Shown in pieces: positions 8,913-56,687 of a stretch of 64,000 nt of DNA. Made by a program: the position numbers and the translations under genes. Source of the stretch: Carbonactinospora thermoautotrophica (GTDB taxonomy: Bacteria; Actinomycetota; Actinomycetes; Streptomycetales; Carbonactinosporaceae); NCBI RefSeq assembly GCF_001543895.1, contig NZ_JYIJ01000017.1, forward strand, positions 496,001 to 560,000, given 5' to 3'. How positions within the stretch are numbered: position 1 is the first letter of the stretch; each line of letters starts with the position of its first letter. The notes under the pieces are model-generated. The model searched no databases. It had not been told where the DNA came from and saw only the letters and a program-made list of their open reading frames with translations.

Positions 8913-10124
8913 GTGCCAGCCGAAGAGCTGACCATCGGCAAGCGCATCCGCGCCTGCCGCCGCTTCCGGGGTATGACCCTGCAGGAACTCGCCGACCTCT
9001 CGGGCCTGTCGAAGAGTTTCCTGTCGATGGTCGAGAACGGCCAACGGACCATAGATCGGCGCTCGCACCTGGATGCCATCGCTGACGTGCTGCAGGTGTC
9101 CTTGAGCGAGATCACCGGGCAGCCCAGCGCGAGCGTCGACCGGGCGAGCATCGCGGCACACGCGGCCGTGCCGGCGTTGCGTGTCGCGCTGATGGACAGC
9201 ACGCTCGACGACCCGCCCGAGGTGCCCGCGCGGCCGTTGCCAGACCTCACCGAGGACATGCGCGCCGCTGCGCCGCTGCGCAGGCGGAGAGACTACGCGA
9301 GGCTCGGCAAACTGCTGCCCGATGTCATCACTGAGCTGCACGTCATCGCGTCCACCGGGAGCAGCGCGCAGCGTGCCGAGGCGCTGCGGCTGCTCATCCA
9401 GGCGTGCCAAGCCGCGGGGTTCATGCTCAAGTACCTGGGGTACGCGGATCTGGCCGCGTTCGCCGCTGAACGGGCGCGGGACGCGGCTGAGCGCCTGGAC
9501 GATCCGGTATGGACGGGTGTGGCCGAGTTCATGCACTCCCACGCTCTCATGTCCGCACGAGCCCGGTCTCGCGCCCTGCGCACCAGTGTCCGCGCGGCCG
9601 AGCGGCTGGAACACCATCTGGACGACGGGCCAACGGCCGAGATGTACGGGATGCTGCACCTGACAGCAGCGCTCGCGAACGCCACCCTCTCGCAGGACAG
9701 CACAGCGTGGGATCACCTCGACGAGGCAGCCCAGATCGCCGCGCGCACCGGTGAATGCCCCGCTGAGCCGCTGCACATGGGATTCGGGCCGACGAACGTG
9801 GGGTTCTGGCGTGTGGCCGTGGCGCTGGAGTTGGGTGAGCCAGACAAGGCCGTCGAAGCGGCGCGCGAGGTGGAACCGGGCCGGCTTGGTGCGGGACGGC
9901 AGGCGGCGTACTGGAGTGACGTGGGTCGGGCGCTGGCGCAGATACCAGGCAAGCAGCGGGAGGCGGTCAAGGCGCTGCGCACGGCTGAGCGGCTGGCGCC
10001 GCAGATGGTCCGGGCGAACCCGATGGTGCGCGACACGGTGGCCACGATGCTGAACCGGGCTCGCGCGCAGGCGGGCGACCGGGACCTGCGCGGCCTGGCA
10101 TACCGGATGGGCATCCCGCACTGA
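8913..10124 (+). CDS. XRE-family regulator with TPR-like C-terminal domain
   Basis: A 403-aa protein. Residues about 6-62 form a Cro/C1-type helix-turn-helix (IGKRIRACRRFRGMTLQELADLSGLSKSFLSMVENGQR). The remaining roughly 330 residues are alanine-rich paired helices resembling tetratricopeptide repeats. This architecture is abundant in actinomycetes, where it often controls an adjacent small gene set, sometimes responding to a peptide or small molecule. The GTG at 8913 follows TGGAGGTGA. A perfect inverted repeat lies directly after its stop codon (10125-10140), followed by the small-gene cluster it probably regulates. Confidence 0.85.
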   Translation: MPAEELTIGKRIRACRRFRGMTLQELADLSGLSKSFLSMVENGQRTIDRRSHLDAIADVLQVSLSEITGQPSASVDRASIAAHAAVPALRVALMDSTLDDPPEVPARPLPDLTEDMRAAAPLRRRRDYARLGKLLPDVITELHVIASTGSSAQRAEALRLLIQACQAAGFMLKYLGYADLAAFAAERARDAAERLDDPVWTGVAEFMHSHALMSARARSRALRTSVRAAERLEHHLDDGPTAEMYGMLHLTAALANATLSQDSTAWDHLDEAAQIAARTGECPAEPLHMGFGPTNVGFWRVAVALELGEPDKAVEAAREVEPGRLGAGRQAAYWSDVGRALAQIPGKQREAVKALRTAERLAPQMVRANPMVRDTVATMLNRARAQAGDRDLRGLAYRMGIPH

Positions 10125-10140
10125 GTTCACAGCAGTGAAC
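10125..10140. promoter_or_regulatory. candidate operator, GTTCAC inverted repeat
   Basis: GTTCAC-AGCA-GTGAAC starts at the base after the XRE stop codon and lies 83 bp upstream of the first small gene (10223). A short symmetric site next to an XRE regulator is a natural operator candidate; the assignment is inference only. Confidence 0.45.
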
Positions 10141-10161
10141 TTTCCGGGCGTGATCTTCCCT

Positions 10162-10222
10162 ACGGTCTCCCTCGTCGTGACAGAGAGTAGCGGCGCTGCT
10201 ACGTGATGATGAGGGAGACCGT
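10162..10222 (+). promoter_or_regulatory. leader with long-range stem covering the ribosome site of the 51-aa gene
   Basis: ACGGTCTCCCTC at 10162-10173 is perfectly complementary to GAGGGAGACCGT at 10211-10222. The second arm contains the Shine-Dalgarno sequence and ends directly before the ATG at 10223. Between the arms, GTAGC/GCTAC (10187-10202) can form an inner hairpin. If the transcript starts upstream, the 12-bp stem would hide the ribosome site, a layout typical of translational switches. No known riboswitch consensus was recognised. Confidence 0.55.
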
Positions 10223-10378
10223 ATGGTCAGCCGCGAGACTCTTGAACACACTCTCGCCGCGTTACGCGATCAGCCGGCCCAGCCGCCCGTCCCGATCCGC
10301 CTGGTCCCGGGCGGAACCCCGCTGCCGGCCCGGACCCCGGCCGGGATCCCCAGACAGCACCGAGGTGAGGGCCGGTGA
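10223..10378 (+). CDS. small hypothetical protein, first gene of XRE-linked cluster (51 aa)
   Basis: ATG at 10223 with ribosome site GAGGGAGA, 51 codons, stop TGA overlapping the next GTG (GTGA). The product begins MVSRETLEHTLAALRDQ, an amphipathic helix, then becomes proline/arginine-rich. No family was recognised. Its start lies at the end of a 12-bp stem that could regulate its translation. Short size, coupling to the next gene and a good ribosome site support it as a real gene. Confidence 0.55.
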   Translation: MVSRETLEHTLAALRDQPAQPPVPIRLVPGGTPLPARTPAGIPRQHRGEGR

Positions 10379-10815
10379 CCATCCCCCCGCGGCAGAGCCC
10401 CAACGGCCACGTCACCCACTTCCCGCCGGCCCCGCCCACGCTGGAGGAATACCTGCGGGACATCCGCGCCGGGGCGCAGATCCAGAACCCGACCCTGGCC
10501 GACCTGATGACCTACCGGGAATGGACCGGCCTGCTGGCCGGTCTGGTGGTGAGCCTGCTCGACACCCACCCGAACACATCCGGCCCAGCGTCGAAGCCCA
10601 CGCCAGGAGCTGGGGGTGGAAAGGGTGACCGAGCCGATCACCGGGATGCGCGCCGTGGTCGACCCCGCGTGTGCCACCTGCCACGGCACCGGCCAGGTGA
10701 ACGGCAACCCGTGCGGCCCGTGCTCGCTGCCGCTGACCCCGAGCGAGATCGCCTTCCTGTACGGGAAGAAGGTGCCCGATGCGCCGGCTCAGCCGTGAGG
10801 CCGAGGTCACGCTGA
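10375..10815 (+). CDS. small hypothetical protein overlapping the CxxC gene
   Basis: GTG at 10375 overlaps the previous stop. The first 80 residues look protein-like (PTLEEYLRDIRAGAQIQNPTL, then DLMTYREWTGLLAGLVVSLL). From about codon 84 the frame continues for 63 more codons as arginine-rich sequence that overlaps the CxxC protein gene (10616-10798) in another frame. The tail is probably not selected for in this frame. Either the protein really ends in this unusual tail, or a frameshift has removed an earlier stop. Confidence 0.5.
   Translation: MTIPPRQSPNGHVTHFPPAPPTLEEYLRDIRAGAQIQNPTLADLMTYREWTGLLAGLVVSLLDTHPNTSGPASKPTPGAGGGKGDRADHRDARRGRPRVCHLPRHRPGERQPVRPVLAAADPERDRLPVREEGARCAGSAVRPRSR
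10616..10798 (+). CDS. small zinc-ribbon-like protein with two CxxC motifs (60 aa)
   Basis: GTG at 10616 lies six bases after AGGAG (10605-10609); a second GTG at 10625 is possible. The 60-aa product has the motif CATCHGTGQVNGNPCGPC near residues 19-36, which can bind one zinc ion in the manner of DnaJ-type or GATA-like knuckles. Its function is unknown. It overlaps the end of the preceding frame by 183 bp and the next gene by 20 bp, so the small genes are packed end to end. Confidence 0.6.
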   Translation: MERVTEPITGMRAVVDPACATCHGTGQVNGNPCGPCSLPLTPSEIAFLYGKKVPDAPAQP

Positions 10816-10886
10816 TCCTGCTCCTCGGCCTGGCCCTGCTCGCGCTACCCGGCCTGCTCTACGCCCTGGGCTGGCTACCCCGCTGA
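10779..10886 (+). CDS. single-span small membrane protein (35 aa)
   Basis: ATG at 10779 after AAGAAGG, stop TGA at 10884-10886. The 35-aa product is a short basic start (MRRLSREAEV) followed by one hydrophobic helix, TLILLLGLALLALPGLLYAL. It overlaps the CxxC gene by 20 bp. A single-pass micropeptide at the end of an XRE-controlled micro-operon is reminiscent of type I toxin or prophage-like small membrane proteins, but that is only a resemblance. Confidence 0.45.
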   Translation: MRRLSREAEVTLILLLGLALLALPGLLYALGWLPR

Positions 10887-10994
10887 CCAGCCCAGCCCGG
10901 CCGCCCCGACCCTCGCCGCCTCCCCGGGGCGGGGACGGCCCCCGCACGGCCCGGCCGGCACACCGTCCCCCGGGGTGCCCGCCGGCCGGGCCCT

Positions 10995-11044
10995 CGTCGA
11001 GTGTGCGTGTCGTCACACGTGTGTGACGACACGCACACTCGACG
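10995..11044. repeat. dispersed palindromic element, copy 1 (full length)
   Basis: A perfect 24-bp stem with a 2-nt loop. The left arm begins CGTCGAGTGTGCGTGTCGTC at 10995 and the right arm ends at 11044. The same core occurs at 22215-22254 and 55481-55529. This copy lies between the small-gene cluster and the glycosylase-like gene, in a 260-bp stretch with no other coding signal. Confidence 0.85.
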
Positions 11045-11146
11045 GGTCGGCGACGCCACCGAAGCCGGCGGGCCGTTCGGGCTAAAGGGTCGCAAGGAAC
11101 CAGCAGCTACAGCCTCGACGGATCTTCCGGCCGTCATAGTTGGGGC

Positions 11147-11950
11147 ATGCGAATGCGACTGCTGATGTGTGACCATCCGGCGTGGCAGCGTGCCGAGGAC
11201 GGGACCGCGTACCGGGTCGTCCGTGGTGAGGGCTCCTTGTGGCTCGTCACGTGGCGGCGCGGCGACCAACCGGAGACGAGGTTCCTCGGCGGCTCGGACG
11301 CCGCCGGTCCGCACATGGACGTCTTCGTCGCGCCGCCCGGTGGTCACCGTCTGCCCGCGGCGCTGTCGTCGGCGCTGGTCGCTCTCGGGCCGGTCGGACG
11401 CGTGCGCAATCCCGACCTGTGGGACGCGTTCGCGAACTCGATCATCCGGCAAGTCATCCGCGCCGGCCACGCACGCAAGCTGTACCGGCGCTTCGCCGAA
11501 GCCTTCGGCGAACGCGTCGAGACCCCGCACGGGCCGGCATGGTTGTTCCCGAGCCCGGAGACCATCGTCGATTTGGACGACGATGCGTTTCGGGCGATGG
11601 GCCTGACGTTCCATGCGCCCGCGCTGCGCGCTGCCGCGCTGGCCTACTCCGAACGCGGGGAGAAGTGGCTCACCCTCGCCCCATGCGACCTGTTCGAGGA
11701 GTTGCAGACCGTGACCCGCGTGGGTTCCTGGTCGGCGGGCGCGACGGTCGCGGACTTCCTGCACGACTGGTCGCTGTACCCCTACGGCGACCGCGCCGTC
11801 CGTACCTGGGCGACGCGCGCCGGAGGGACCTTGTGGCCGGACTCCGAGTCGGAGTTCGCGCGCGCCTGGCAGGCGGCGACCGGCGCTCACCTGTCCACGC
11901 TCACCCTCTTGACACTCGCTTGGGGGGTAACCCATGGAGACACCGGCTAG
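11147..11950 (+). CDS. HhH-GPD-type DNA glycosylase-like protein
   Basis: A 267-aa protein without a signal peptide. The middle (NPDLWDAFANSIIRQVIRAGHARKLY) and the later VTRVGSWSAGATVADFL segment resemble the helix-hairpin-helix and following helix of AlkA/MutY-type glycosylases. They are followed by YPYGDRAV, where the catalytic Asp of that family usually lies. Such enzymes remove damaged bases. The N-terminal 70 residues form beta strands as in AlkA. The similarity is from motif reading only, and the hairpin is somewhat degenerate. Its stop overlaps the next small gene. Confidence 0.6.
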   Translation: MRMRLLMCDHPAWQRAEDGTAYRVVRGEGSLWLVTWRRGDQPETRFLGGSDAAGPHMDVFVAPPGGHRLPAALSSALVALGPVGRVRNPDLWDAFANSIIRQVIRAGHARKLYRRFAEAFGERVETPHGPAWLFPSPETIVDLDDDAFRAMGLTFHAPALRAAALAYSERGEKWLTLAPCDLFEELQTVTRVGSWSAGATVADFLHDWSLYPYGDRAVRTWATRAGGTLWPDSESEFARAWQAATGAHLSTLTLLTLAWGVTHGDTG

Positions 11951-22214: not shown

Positions 22215-22254
22215 CCGCGTCGAGTGTGCGTGACGACACGCACACTCGACGCGG
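22215..22254. repeat. dispersed palindromic element, copy 2 (short form)
   Basis: A perfect 18-bp stem, CCGCGTCGAGTGTGCGTG (22215-22232), loop ACGA, complement at 22237-22254. It begins 4 bp after the kinase stop codon, between convergent genes, and shares the core of copies 1 and 3 but lacks their inner TCGTCAC section. In this position it could also act as a bidirectional terminator. Confidence 0.85.
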
Positions 22255-53749: not shown

Positions 53750-55455
53750 CGGCGCCGCTGCGCGTCGGCAACGCCTCCGGGTTCTACGGCGACCGGCTCA
53801 CCGCGATGCGGGAGATGCTGGAAGGCGGCCCGCTCGACGTGCTGACCGGCGACTACCTGGCCGAGCTGACCATGCTCATCCTCGGCCGCGACCGGCTGAA
53901 GGAGCCAGGCACCGGGTACGCGAAGACCTTCCTCAAGCAGTTGGAGGACTGCCTGGGGCTGGCGCTGGACAAGGGGGTGCGGATCGTCGCCAACGCGGGC
54001 GGCCTCAACCCCGCCGGGCTCGCCGACAGGTTGCGGGAGCTGGCCGACCGGCTGGGCCTGGCGCCGCGGATCGCTTATGTCGAAGGCGACGACCTGATGC
54101 CGCGCGCGGACGAGCTGGGGCTGGGCCAGCCGCTGGCCGCCAACGCCTACCTCGGCGCGTGGGGCATCGCCGAGGCCCTGAAGGCCGGCGCGGACGTCGT
54201 GGTCACCGGCCGGGTCACCGACGCCTCCCTGGTCGTCGGCCCGGCGGCGGCGCACTTCGGGTGGGCGCGCGACGACTGGGACCGGCTGGCCGGCGCCACC
54301 GTCGCCGGCCACGTGCTGGAGTGCGGCGCCCAGGCCACCGGCGGCAACTTCGCCTTCTTCACCGAGCTAGTCAAGGCTGGGGCTGACCTGCGCCGCCCGG
54401 GCTTCCCGCTCGCCGAGATCCACCCCGACGGCTCGTCGGTCATCACCAAACACCCCGGCACCGGCGGCGCGGTGACCGTCGACACGGTGACCGCGCAACT
54501 GCTGTACGAGATCGGCGGCGCCCGGTACGCGGGGCCCGACGTCACGACCCGGTTCGACACGATCCGGATCGAGCCGGCCGGGCCGGACCGGGTGCGGATC
54601 AGCGGGGTGCGGGGCGAGCCCCCGCCGCCCACCGTCAAGGTGGGCCGCAACTTCCTCGGCGGGTTCCGCAACGAGGTGACGTTCGTCCTGACCGGCCTGG
54701 ACATCGAGGCCAAGGCCGAGCTGGTCAAGGCGCAGCTGACCGCCGCCCTGGCGAACCGGCCGCCGGCGGAGATCCGCTGGACTCTGGCCCGCACCGACCA
54801 CCCGGACGCGGGCACGCAGGAGGAGGCGAGCGCCCTGCTGCGGGTCACGGTCAAGGACCCCGACCCCGGGGTCGTGGGCCGGCGGTTCTCCGGCGCGGCC
54901 GTCGAGCTGGGGCTGGCCAGCTACCCGGGCTTCACGCTCACCGCGCCGCCCGCCGACGCCTCCCCGTGCGGGGTGTACCGGCCGGCGTACCTGCCGGGCG
55001 AGCTGGTCGAGCACACCGCGGTACTGCCCGACGGCACGCGGGTCCCGGTCGCGCCGGCTCCGGCCACCCGGGAGCTGGCGGACGTCGCCCCGCCCGCGCT
55101 GCCCGAACCGCTCCCGCCCGGCCCGACCCGGCGCGTGCCGCTCGGGTACGTGGCCGGCGCCCGCAGCGGCGACAAGGGCGGCGACGCCAACATCGGGGTC
55201 TGGGCCCGCACCGAGGAGGCGTGGCGCTGGCTCGCCCACTTCCTCACCGTCGATCAACTGCGCCACCTGCTGCCCGAGACCGCCGCCCTGCCGGTGACCC
55301 GGCACGTGTTCCCCAACCTGCGCGCGGTCAACTTCGTCATCGAGGGCATCCTCGGCGACGGGGTGGCCGCCGGGGCCAGGTTCGACCCGCAGGGCAAGGG
55401 GCTCGGCGAGTGGCTGCGCTCCCGTCTGGTACCCGTGCCGGAGGTCCTGCTATGA
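53746..55455 (+). CDS. AtuA-like acyclic terpene utilisation family protein
   Basis: A 569-aa protein of the AtuA/DUF1446 family: [20 protein letters not shown] at the N-terminus, [40 protein letters not shown] and [16 protein letters not shown] in the first 220 residues, and the C-terminal domain with [20 protein letters not shown]. In Pseudomonas, atuA belongs to the citronellol/geranyl-CoA pathway, but the molecular role is unknown. ATGA overlaps at both ends bind it to its neighbours. Full length, no damage. Confidence 0.85.
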
Positions 55456-56683
55456 CCGACACCGCGACCTCCCACCGCGACGAGTGTGCGTGTCGTCACG
55501 CCACAGGCGTGGGACGACACGCACACTCGATGCGAACCTTGGCAGGCGGGTGGGATACCCCGGAGCGCAAGGCCCTGCGCGACACCGTGCGCCGGTTCGT
55601 CGAGCGGGAGGTCCGGCCGCACCTGGCGGACTGGGAGCGCGCCGGGGAGGTCCCGAGAGCGCTGCACGCCAAAGCGGCCGAGGCCGGGCTGCTCGGCGTG
55701 GGCTTCCCCGAGGAGGTCGGCGGCTGCGGCGGCGACCTGCTCGACATGATCGTGGTCACCGAGGAGCTGATCCAGGCCGGCGGCTCCTCCGGCCTGTGCG
55801 CGGCGCTGCTCACGCACGGCATCGCCGTCCCGCACATCGTGGCGGCGGGCGACCCGGACCTCGTCGACCGGTTCGTCCGCCCCACCCTCGCCGGCGAGCT
55901 GATCGGGGCGCTCGGGGTGACCGAGCCGGACGGCGGCTCCGACGTGGCGGCCATCCGCACCACCGCGGTGCGGGACGGCGAGGTGTACGTGGTGAACGGC
56001 GGCAAGACCTACATCACCTCCGGCTGCCGCGCGGACTTCGTCACCACCGCGGTCCGCACCGGCGGACCCGGGCACGAGGGCGTCAGCCTGCTGGTGATCG
56101 AGCGCGGCACGCCCGGGTTCACGGTGACGCGCCGGCTCGACAAGCTGGGCTGGCACTGCTCCGACACCGCCGAGCTGGCCTTCGCCGACTGCCGGGTGCC
56201 GGCCCGCAACCTGGTCGGCGCGGAGAACGCCGGCTTCGCCCTGCTCATGTGGCAGTTCCAGGTGGAGCGGCTGATGCTCGCCGTCCAGGCGTACGCGACC
56301 GCGCAGCGCTGCCTGGACCTGACCCTGGACTGGGTGCGGCTGCGCTCGACGTTCGGCCGGCCGCTGATCTCCCGCCAGGTGGTGCGGCACCGGCTGGTCG
56401 AGATGGCGCAGCGGATCGACCTGGCACGCACCTACACCCGGGCGGTCGCGGAGCGGTTCACCGCCGGGGAGGAGGTGACCGCCCAGGTCTGCATGGCCAA
56501 GAACGCCGCGGTGGAGGCGTGCTCGTACGTGGTCGACGCGGCGGTCCAGTTGCACGGCGGCTACGGGTACACCCGCGACGCCGAGGTGGAACGGCACTAC
56601 CGCGACGCGCGGATCCTCGGCATCGGCGGCGGCGCGACCGAGGTGCTGACCGAACTGGCGGCGCGACGAATGGGGTTCACGGC

Positions 56684-56687
<4 letters not shown>
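55452..56687 (+). CDS. acyl-CoA dehydrogenase with an in-frame palindromic insert
   Basis: A 411-aa FAD acyl-CoA dehydrogenase. After residue 27 the sequence is regular ([20 protein letters not shown], then [48 protein letters not shown] and [16 protein letters not shown]). Residues about 10-26 ([17 protein letters not shown]) are encoded by the dispersed palindrome and have no counterpart in the family. The ATG 55452 has GGAGGT seven bases before and overlaps the previous stop; a second ATG at 55530 would skip the insert but has no ribosome site. Alternative name: citronellyl/isovaleryl-type dehydrogenase. Confidence 0.9.
55481..55529. repeat. dispersed palindromic element, copy 3, inside a coding region
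   Basis: CGAGTGTGCGTGTCGTC (55481-55497) pairs with its perfect complement at 55513-55529. The inner ACGCC/GGCGT (loop ACA) continues the stem with a GG bulge. The frame remains open through it. The core is shared with 10995-11044 and 22215-22254. Confidence 0.85.

Follow-up and report, generated by a model that had tools for sequence, protein, structure and literature searches.

A dispersed palindromic repeat of Carbonactinospora thermoautotrophica with a copy in frame at the start of an acyl-CoA dehydrogenase gene

Introduction

When a palindrome occupies the first codons of a gene, is it read into protein, or does translation begin beyond it? This question is raised by an acyl-CoA dehydrogenase gene of Carbonactinospora thermoautotrophica, which lies in a 64,000-nt stretch of contig NZ_JYIJ01000017.1 (here called the window; positions given without a contig or locus refer to it). 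On the plus strand of the window, an AtuA-family gene (53752-55455, 5' end inferred; Pfam AtuA, 1.3e-157, and AtuA_ferredoxin, 9.9e-18), the dehydrogenase gene (55452-56687) and carboxylase-like genes, these last named by look only, follow one another in an operon-like run. From ATG 55452, a start placed by alignment and by the starts of orthologues, the dehydrogenase has 411 residues, with Pfam domains Acyl-CoA_dh_1, _N and _M.

The palindrome and its reading frame

The inverted repeat spans 55476-55534, with 22-nt arms that are 91% complementary and lie 15 nt apart. Reading from ATG 55452 meets no stop codon in the repeat, and the preliminary description of this locus, which had placed a palindrome in frame in the dehydrogenase gene, is thus confirmed on this point. 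Bounded as other copies of its family are (see below), the element itself is a 55-nt segment, 55478-55532, to which no strand is assigned; its arms match those of the other copies, and it encodes residues from about D10 to M27. Arms of this kind (17 nt, up to three mismatches) occur six times in the window against 0.82 expected, and none of 100 shuffled sequences reached six. RNA corresponding to 55425-55560 (136 nt) is predicted to fold with a free energy of –73.5 kcal/mol (z = –5.25). Matches to two known RNA families, mir-279 (30.5 bits, E 0.001, gathering score 56) and sR44 (15.4 bits, gathering score 45), were below threshold and were judged to be chance.

Where translation starts

ATG 55452 is preceded at a distance of 6 nt by the Shine-Dalgarno sequence GGAGGT (55440-55445, plus strand) and overlaps the TGA of the AtuA-family gene (55453-55455) by 4 nt. 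A second in-frame candidate on the same strand, ATG 55530-55532, forms the right end of the palindrome. Here the gene copy has ATG where the family consensus is ACG, and it is this uncompensated change that creates ATG 55530.

To compare starts, we used 15 close relatives with upstream DNA (L064-L078) from among 20 dehydrogenase relatives found. Each of the 15 shows an NTGA start codon in frame where one is expected, and in 14 it overlaps the upstream stop by four bases. The overlapped stop belongs to an AtuA-type frame in 13 of the 15 and to a TetR-like gene in L077; in L071, a TetR-like gene ends a few bases earlier, so the ATGA there makes no overlap. Several orthologues also carry the GGAGG...GCT-NTGA arrangement of the window, with a near-identical Shine-Dalgarno sequence. 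These data support the earlier assignment of the start to ATG 55452, with GGAGGT and the stop overlap, and we regard this start as likely. In six Saccharothrix loci (L066, L068, L072, L074-L076), the stretch matching the AtuA C-terminus is apparently in another frame than the main part of AtuA, as if there were two genes.

The same comparison bears on the N-terminal residues, which the preliminary description had called foreign-looking and had proposed to compare among orthologues. No palindrome arm (up to three mismatches) is present at any of the 15 close orthologue loci, and the insert in the window protein derives from a repeat, as that description had suggested. N-terminal sequences were aligned for 12 of these proteins and relatives, drawn from the 15 plus the distant L079, 11 of them being close orthologues. 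In 14 of the 15 close orthologues, 3-13 residues precede the conserved xTPER motif, versus 34 in the window protein. One caveat here is that L073 also has 34 residues before xTPER and lacks the palindrome, so a long N-terminal tail alone proves nothing.

The genus and the family are each represented by one genome, and among the sequences compared there was no close relative with an empty site. L063, the nearest of them, breaks off at the equivalent of window base 55541, nine bases past the palindrome, as an assembly break at a repeat would look. L063 (JASBVL010000097.1) is binned as 'Sphaerobacter sp. Bu17', and its dehydrogenase is 97.7% identical in DNA over 1,140 bases; its assignment to a Sphaerobacter bin is probably a binning error. 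A consortium of Carbonactinospora with Sphaerobacter is described in the available text of PMC9977764. The distant relative L081 has one arm-like match with three mismatches, 1.4 kb beyond the gene, which we judged to be chance.

Could translation begin instead at ATG 55530, leaving the palindrome as an untranslated leader hairpin that slows the dehydrogenase or uncouples it from the AtuA-family gene? This start is in frame, it would leave 7 residues before WDTPER, close to the length in most orthologues, and our codon-usage gene caller, a crude one, prefers it to 55452. Moreover, untranslated leader repetitive extragenic palindromes (REPs) occur at some 5' ends, and many repeats at predicted N-termini may be leader sequence, according to the available text of Di Nocera et al. 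(PMC3733652). However, ATG 55530 has no visible Shine-Dalgarno sequence and sits at the foot of a strong hairpin, whereas 55452 offers a good site, a conserved stop overlap and a frame that is open throughout. We consider a leader hairpin unlikely, although it is the most serious competitor of translation through the palindrome.

A predicted disordered tail

To see where the palindrome-coded residues would fall in the protein, we examined an AlphaFold2 model built from 13 sequences (mean pLDDT 75.4, pTM 0.79). Throughout residues 1-31, pLDDT stays below 50 (about 30-35); helical structure first appears at residue 31. All of the palindrome-coded residues (about 10-27) fall within this low-pLDDT tail, which is predicted to be disordered and in which the enzyme would probably tolerate them. 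The palindrome is probably translated into a floppy extra tail.

A genome-wide palindrome family

The palindrome proves to be one of many, which the preliminary description could not have seen. The strict pattern GTGTGCGTGTCGT-N0-30-ACGACACGCACAC occurs at 53 places on each strand of the 5.13-Mb genome, and the reversed control pattern at none. Together with the arm counts in the window and the z score of the fold, these numbers rule out a chance inverted repeat. With flanking bases included, the consensus unit is CGTCGAGTGTGCGTGTCGTCAC-(variable centre)-GTGACGACACGCACACTCGACG, and strict elements measure 41-55 bp (cores of 29-43 nt plus 12 nt). In 48 of the 53 copies, the outer six bases (CGTCGA or a variant) are all paired with those at the opposite end; farther out, pairing looks like chance. 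At least 15 shortened, asymmetric or half copies are also present, several of the form CGTCGAGTGTGC-GTGTCGTCACGCGAA-GCACACTCGACG. Within the window, the arm search located a shortened copy just behind a stop codon (22218-22251) and, with flanks considered, an intergenic copy in a repeated cassette (10995-11044); neither is assigned a strand.

That cassette is duplicated and carries 16 of the 53 palindromes (window 8913-11170 and L009, L011, L015, L017-L019, L026-L028, L033, L037, L039, L043, L050 and L053). Three further pairs have at least 80 bp of flank in common (L008/L020, L014/L040 and L041/L048), so about 35 of the 53 copies can be counted as independent. A small group (L007, L023, L031) has about 20-60 bp of common flank. 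A larger mobile unit around the palindrome was considered and rejected. No target-site duplications were seen by eye around the copies. HTH regulator genes lie near two of the cassette flanks examined (window 8913-10121; L084). Directly before the palindrome, in the window (10946-10993) and in other cassette copies, is a GC-rich hairpin, followed in many of them by a T run (GCCGGCCGGGCCTTTT), like an intrinsic terminator.

To learn how far the family extends, we searched for the exact-arm pattern elsewhere. There were no matches in 292 other genomes of the order, none in a collection of 84,980 species (from which short contigs had been left out and this genome itself may be absent), and none in viral contigs, the last result ruling out a viral source by exact arms. 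When 394 genomes of the class were searched less strictly at the DNA level, partial matches appeared in 26 of the 393 others, at one or two places each (E 0.0002-0.009). The widest of these covered query bases 9-63 at 77% identity, none covered the whole palindrome, and the matches resemble chance. This last search is a weak test because few candidates were scored per genome: it returned four matches at two places in the own genome, versus 53 copies. As far as searched, the family appears private to the Carbonactinospora lineage, and we found no description of it in the open-licence PubMed Central literature.

Copies in and between genes

We next asked where the copies lie relative to genes, using the gene caller with codon usage trained on the fetched loci. 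By this measure, 27 of the 53 copies are between tandem genes, 18 between convergent and 7 between divergent genes, and one is inside a gene; the dehydrogenase copy is counted as intergenic because the caller picks the start at 55530. Neighbouring 3' ends lie within 30 bp in 27 of 63 cases, compared with 1 of 41 for neighbouring 5' ends, the one being the dehydrogenase. Given the 55452 start, strict copies inside genes number two of 53 (in the dehydrogenase gene and in the DNA glycosylase gene described below), the rest being mostly intergenic and often close downstream of a 3' end. Coding sequence makes up a fraction of 0.825 of the window and 0.743 of the fetched loci; had the copies been inserted at random and none purged, most would therefore lie in genes. 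This suggests that in-gene copies have been purged by selection.

The one copy that the caller places inside a gene is at position 44835 of contig C18 (L031, gene 806-1723), in a DNA glycosylase of the Fpg/Nei kind, which we take to be nei-like. Pfam domains Fapy_DNA_glyco, H2TH and zf-FPG are present (the last 0.1 bit under the cut-off), and the palindrome falls between the H2TH domain and the zinc finger. Of the 53 copies, it alone is flanked left and right by DNA that clearly codes in a single frame, a test that the dehydrogenase copy cannot pass because just nine codons precede it. None of the 15 shortened or degenerate copies was flagged as in frame. We looked for orthologues in 24 other genomes of the order and kept 20 strong matches, leaving out four weak ones (G006, G014, G016, G020). 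Between the conserved H and YxY, the linker has 49 residues here versus 18 in all 20 strong orthologues, some linkers having been read by eye. The excess of 31 residues corresponds to 93 bases, more than the 50-base palindrome, and the copy has some flanking bases in common with the intergenic copies L007 and L023; the inserted unit may therefore include flank.

With these two separate genes, the range of protein-embedded palindromes is extended to an actinomycete, and the nei-like gene provides the clean comparison. Disordered tails and linkers are indicated as the places where they are tolerated.

Symmetry of arms and centres

At the outer six positions, which were free in the search, six changes have a matching change in the opposite arm and nine do not; in 10,000 shuffles of the right arms, matches averaged 0.28 and never exceeded 3. 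The matched changes are of three kinds (L034/L035/L040, L041/L048 and L051), and three events is the safe count because relatedness inflates the number (L041 and L048 share flanks). There are 24 distinct centres, 12 of them perfectly symmetric, and 37 of the 53 copies have a perfect centre compared with 2.2% of shuffled centres, although assembly errors may occur at hairpins. The centre of the dehydrogenase copy, CACGCCACAGGCGTGGG, is less symmetric than that of any other copy (four mismatched pairs), which would be consistent with drift of an old copy constrained by its coding role.

What seems to be retained is thus the symmetry and not a particular sequence. A hairpin under selection would account for this, and so would the templating of one arm by the other; we tentatively favour the latter as the spreading route. 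Through the matched two-sided changes in arms and centres, one could examine how repeats without a known transposase copy their long palindromes and maintain the symmetry. A further, asymmetric subfamily (L056, L057, L061, L062, L083, L086 and L091) has 12-bp outer arms, some imperfect, around a GTGTCGTCACGCGAA-like middle, and could be the ancestral form of the symmetric palindromes.

The symmetry data also bear on whether the palindromes are sites under sequence selection, bound by a host protein or organising the chromosome, with the dehydrogenase copy there to regulate that gene. The arms are nearly invariant among strict copies, which the search itself favoured by demanding exact inner arms, and the copies are spread over eight contigs, as such sites might be. 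However, the variety of centres and the matched arm variants point to retention of symmetry, the 16 cassette copies travel with a duplication, and the exact arms did not turn up in the order or in the species collection. We therefore think a role as binding sites very unlikely.

A serine-recombinase element splits two copies

Two palindromes are interrupted at their centres by the same kind of element. On contig C17, facing arms lie at 643294 and 652992, 9.7 kb apart (L124, spanning 642800-653500, with arms at its positions 496 and 10177). The protein encoded at the right end of the intervening element has 474 residues and combines Resolvase, Recombinase and zinc-ribbon domains; its gene adjoins the junction. 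Another palindrome contains the same element ends, located where contigs C16 and C13 stop; this second copy of the element is judged from its ends only, because the full recombinase gene was found once. Both events fit one attP-like sequence, GCAAGCATACGCGTGTGCTTGC, with crossover in ACGCG at the palindrome centre. Thus, in two events with the same element ends, a palindrome is split by a recombinase-coding element, and the split palindromes look as if they act as its attachment sites (putative attB). The element also encodes HTH_17 and HNH domains and a small-terminase match under the Pfam cut-off, and therefore looks phage-derived. Third-position GC in its genes is about 0.70-0.78, compared with 0.97 and 0.89 in the genes just outside, a difference that points to late acquisition.

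The split copies suggest a recombinase with a repeated palindrome as its natural target; we found no serine recombinase targeting such repeats described in the open-licence PubMed Central literature. Spread of the palindromes by this element, as its own attachment sites, is the least probable account of the family, for although two palindromes are split by the same ends and the recombinase gene of the complete copy stands beside its junction, the arms of the deduced attP (GCAAGCA/TGCTTGC) differ from the palindrome arms, the low third-position GC suggests that the element came late, and serine recombinases recombine at existing sites and do not create them.

A broader picture, which we offer tentatively and hold to be rather doubtful as a whole, is that of a new kind of nearly loopless palindrome family that templates itself, one arm being copied from the other in a hairpin intermediate so that mutations become two-sided at once. 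Such palindromes would occasionally enter proteins, and their centre would have been adopted by a phage-like serine-recombinase element as a multi-copy landing site. If this is true, dozens of places in the genome, the dehydrogenase gene included, are potential docking sites for the element.

A likely history of the dehydrogenase copy

Taking the evidence together, we think it likely that a small non-coding palindromic repeat of the REP/RPE kind (RPE, Rickettsia palindromic element), private so far to this lineage, was inserted in frame in the first dehydrogenase codons and is translated from 55452 through the palindrome. On this account, a copy would have entered the early codons without shifting the frame, and translation, starting at ATG 55452 by coupling to the AtuA-type stop, would read through it. 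The 18 or so added residues would sit in a disordered tail before the first helix, where the enzyme could tolerate them and the insertion could survive; we infer that the tail is made and harmless. Elsewhere, insertions would have lasted almost exclusively in intergenic DNA, often close after a 3' end, and there the hairpin may end or protect transcripts at the RNA level. Spread may have followed a hairpin-DNA route in which one arm is copied from the other. No transposase for the palindrome family was identified in the genome.

Relation to known repeats

The preliminary description had drawn a parallel with RPEs. These are about 150 bp long and form ten families, with 44 in-gene insertions in R. 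conorii, according to the available text of PMC10969869. As in Rickettsia, palindromic repeats lie here in frame in unrelated protein genes, and the nei-like copy strengthens the analogy. Membership in the RPE family does not follow, as size and architecture differ: RPEs are longer and many are in genes, whereas the elements here measure 41-55 bp and two of 53 are in genes, a distinction drawn from published descriptions of RPEs. Overall, the earlier interpretation is largely right as an analogy and unproven at the protein level. In the broad sense of an intragenic palindromic repeat, the family has multiple copies (53 against none for the control) and members that are in frame and missing in orthologues, in the nei-like gene and, given the 55452 start, in the dehydrogenase gene. 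Such insertions had been called rarely described; this can hold at most for actinomycetes, since in-gene palindromes are reported in several species outside Rickettsia in the available text of PMC3733652, in which the words actinobacteria and streptomyces do not occur.

The same text groups RPE-4, RPE-6 and dRS3 among the CGTC-tagged REPs (PMC3733652). As described there, these resemble the present family in beginning with CGTC, in lacking a flanked transposase, in lying behind 3' ends, and in that many of the REP-carrying genes act in DNA synthesis and repair, as the nei-like gene does here. However, their CGTC tag is unpaired whereas here CGTC pairs with GACG, their stem of 8-9 bp and loop of 4-5 nt contrast with arms of at least 19 bp and loopless symmetric copies, and they have a CCA tail whereas the flanks here are not conserved as CCA. 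REPs are also described as landing sites for insertion sequences (PMC3733652, available text), and in both cases dispersed palindromes are insertion targets; here, however, the guest encodes a large serine recombinase, and at each of the two sites seen the palindrome is divided in its centre.

The GTAG-tagged REPs, which are associated with RAYT transposases, are likewise dispersed and mostly intergenic hairpins, some of them in genes. Unlike them, the consensus here has no GTAG, and no Y1 transposase locus is flanked on both sides by palindromes. The features tested place the family outside both the GTAG and the CGTC superfamily. Seven Y1_Tnp matches are present in the genome, two of them apparently halves of a single gene, and within loci of about 3 kb around them no palindrome occurs except at L093, where it is 1.1 kb away and on one side only. 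As the palindromes do not flank the Y1 matches, an IS200/IS605 or RAYT mobiliser was rejected. By eye, L093 and L095 look like ordinary IS605-type pairs with TnpB-like neighbours.
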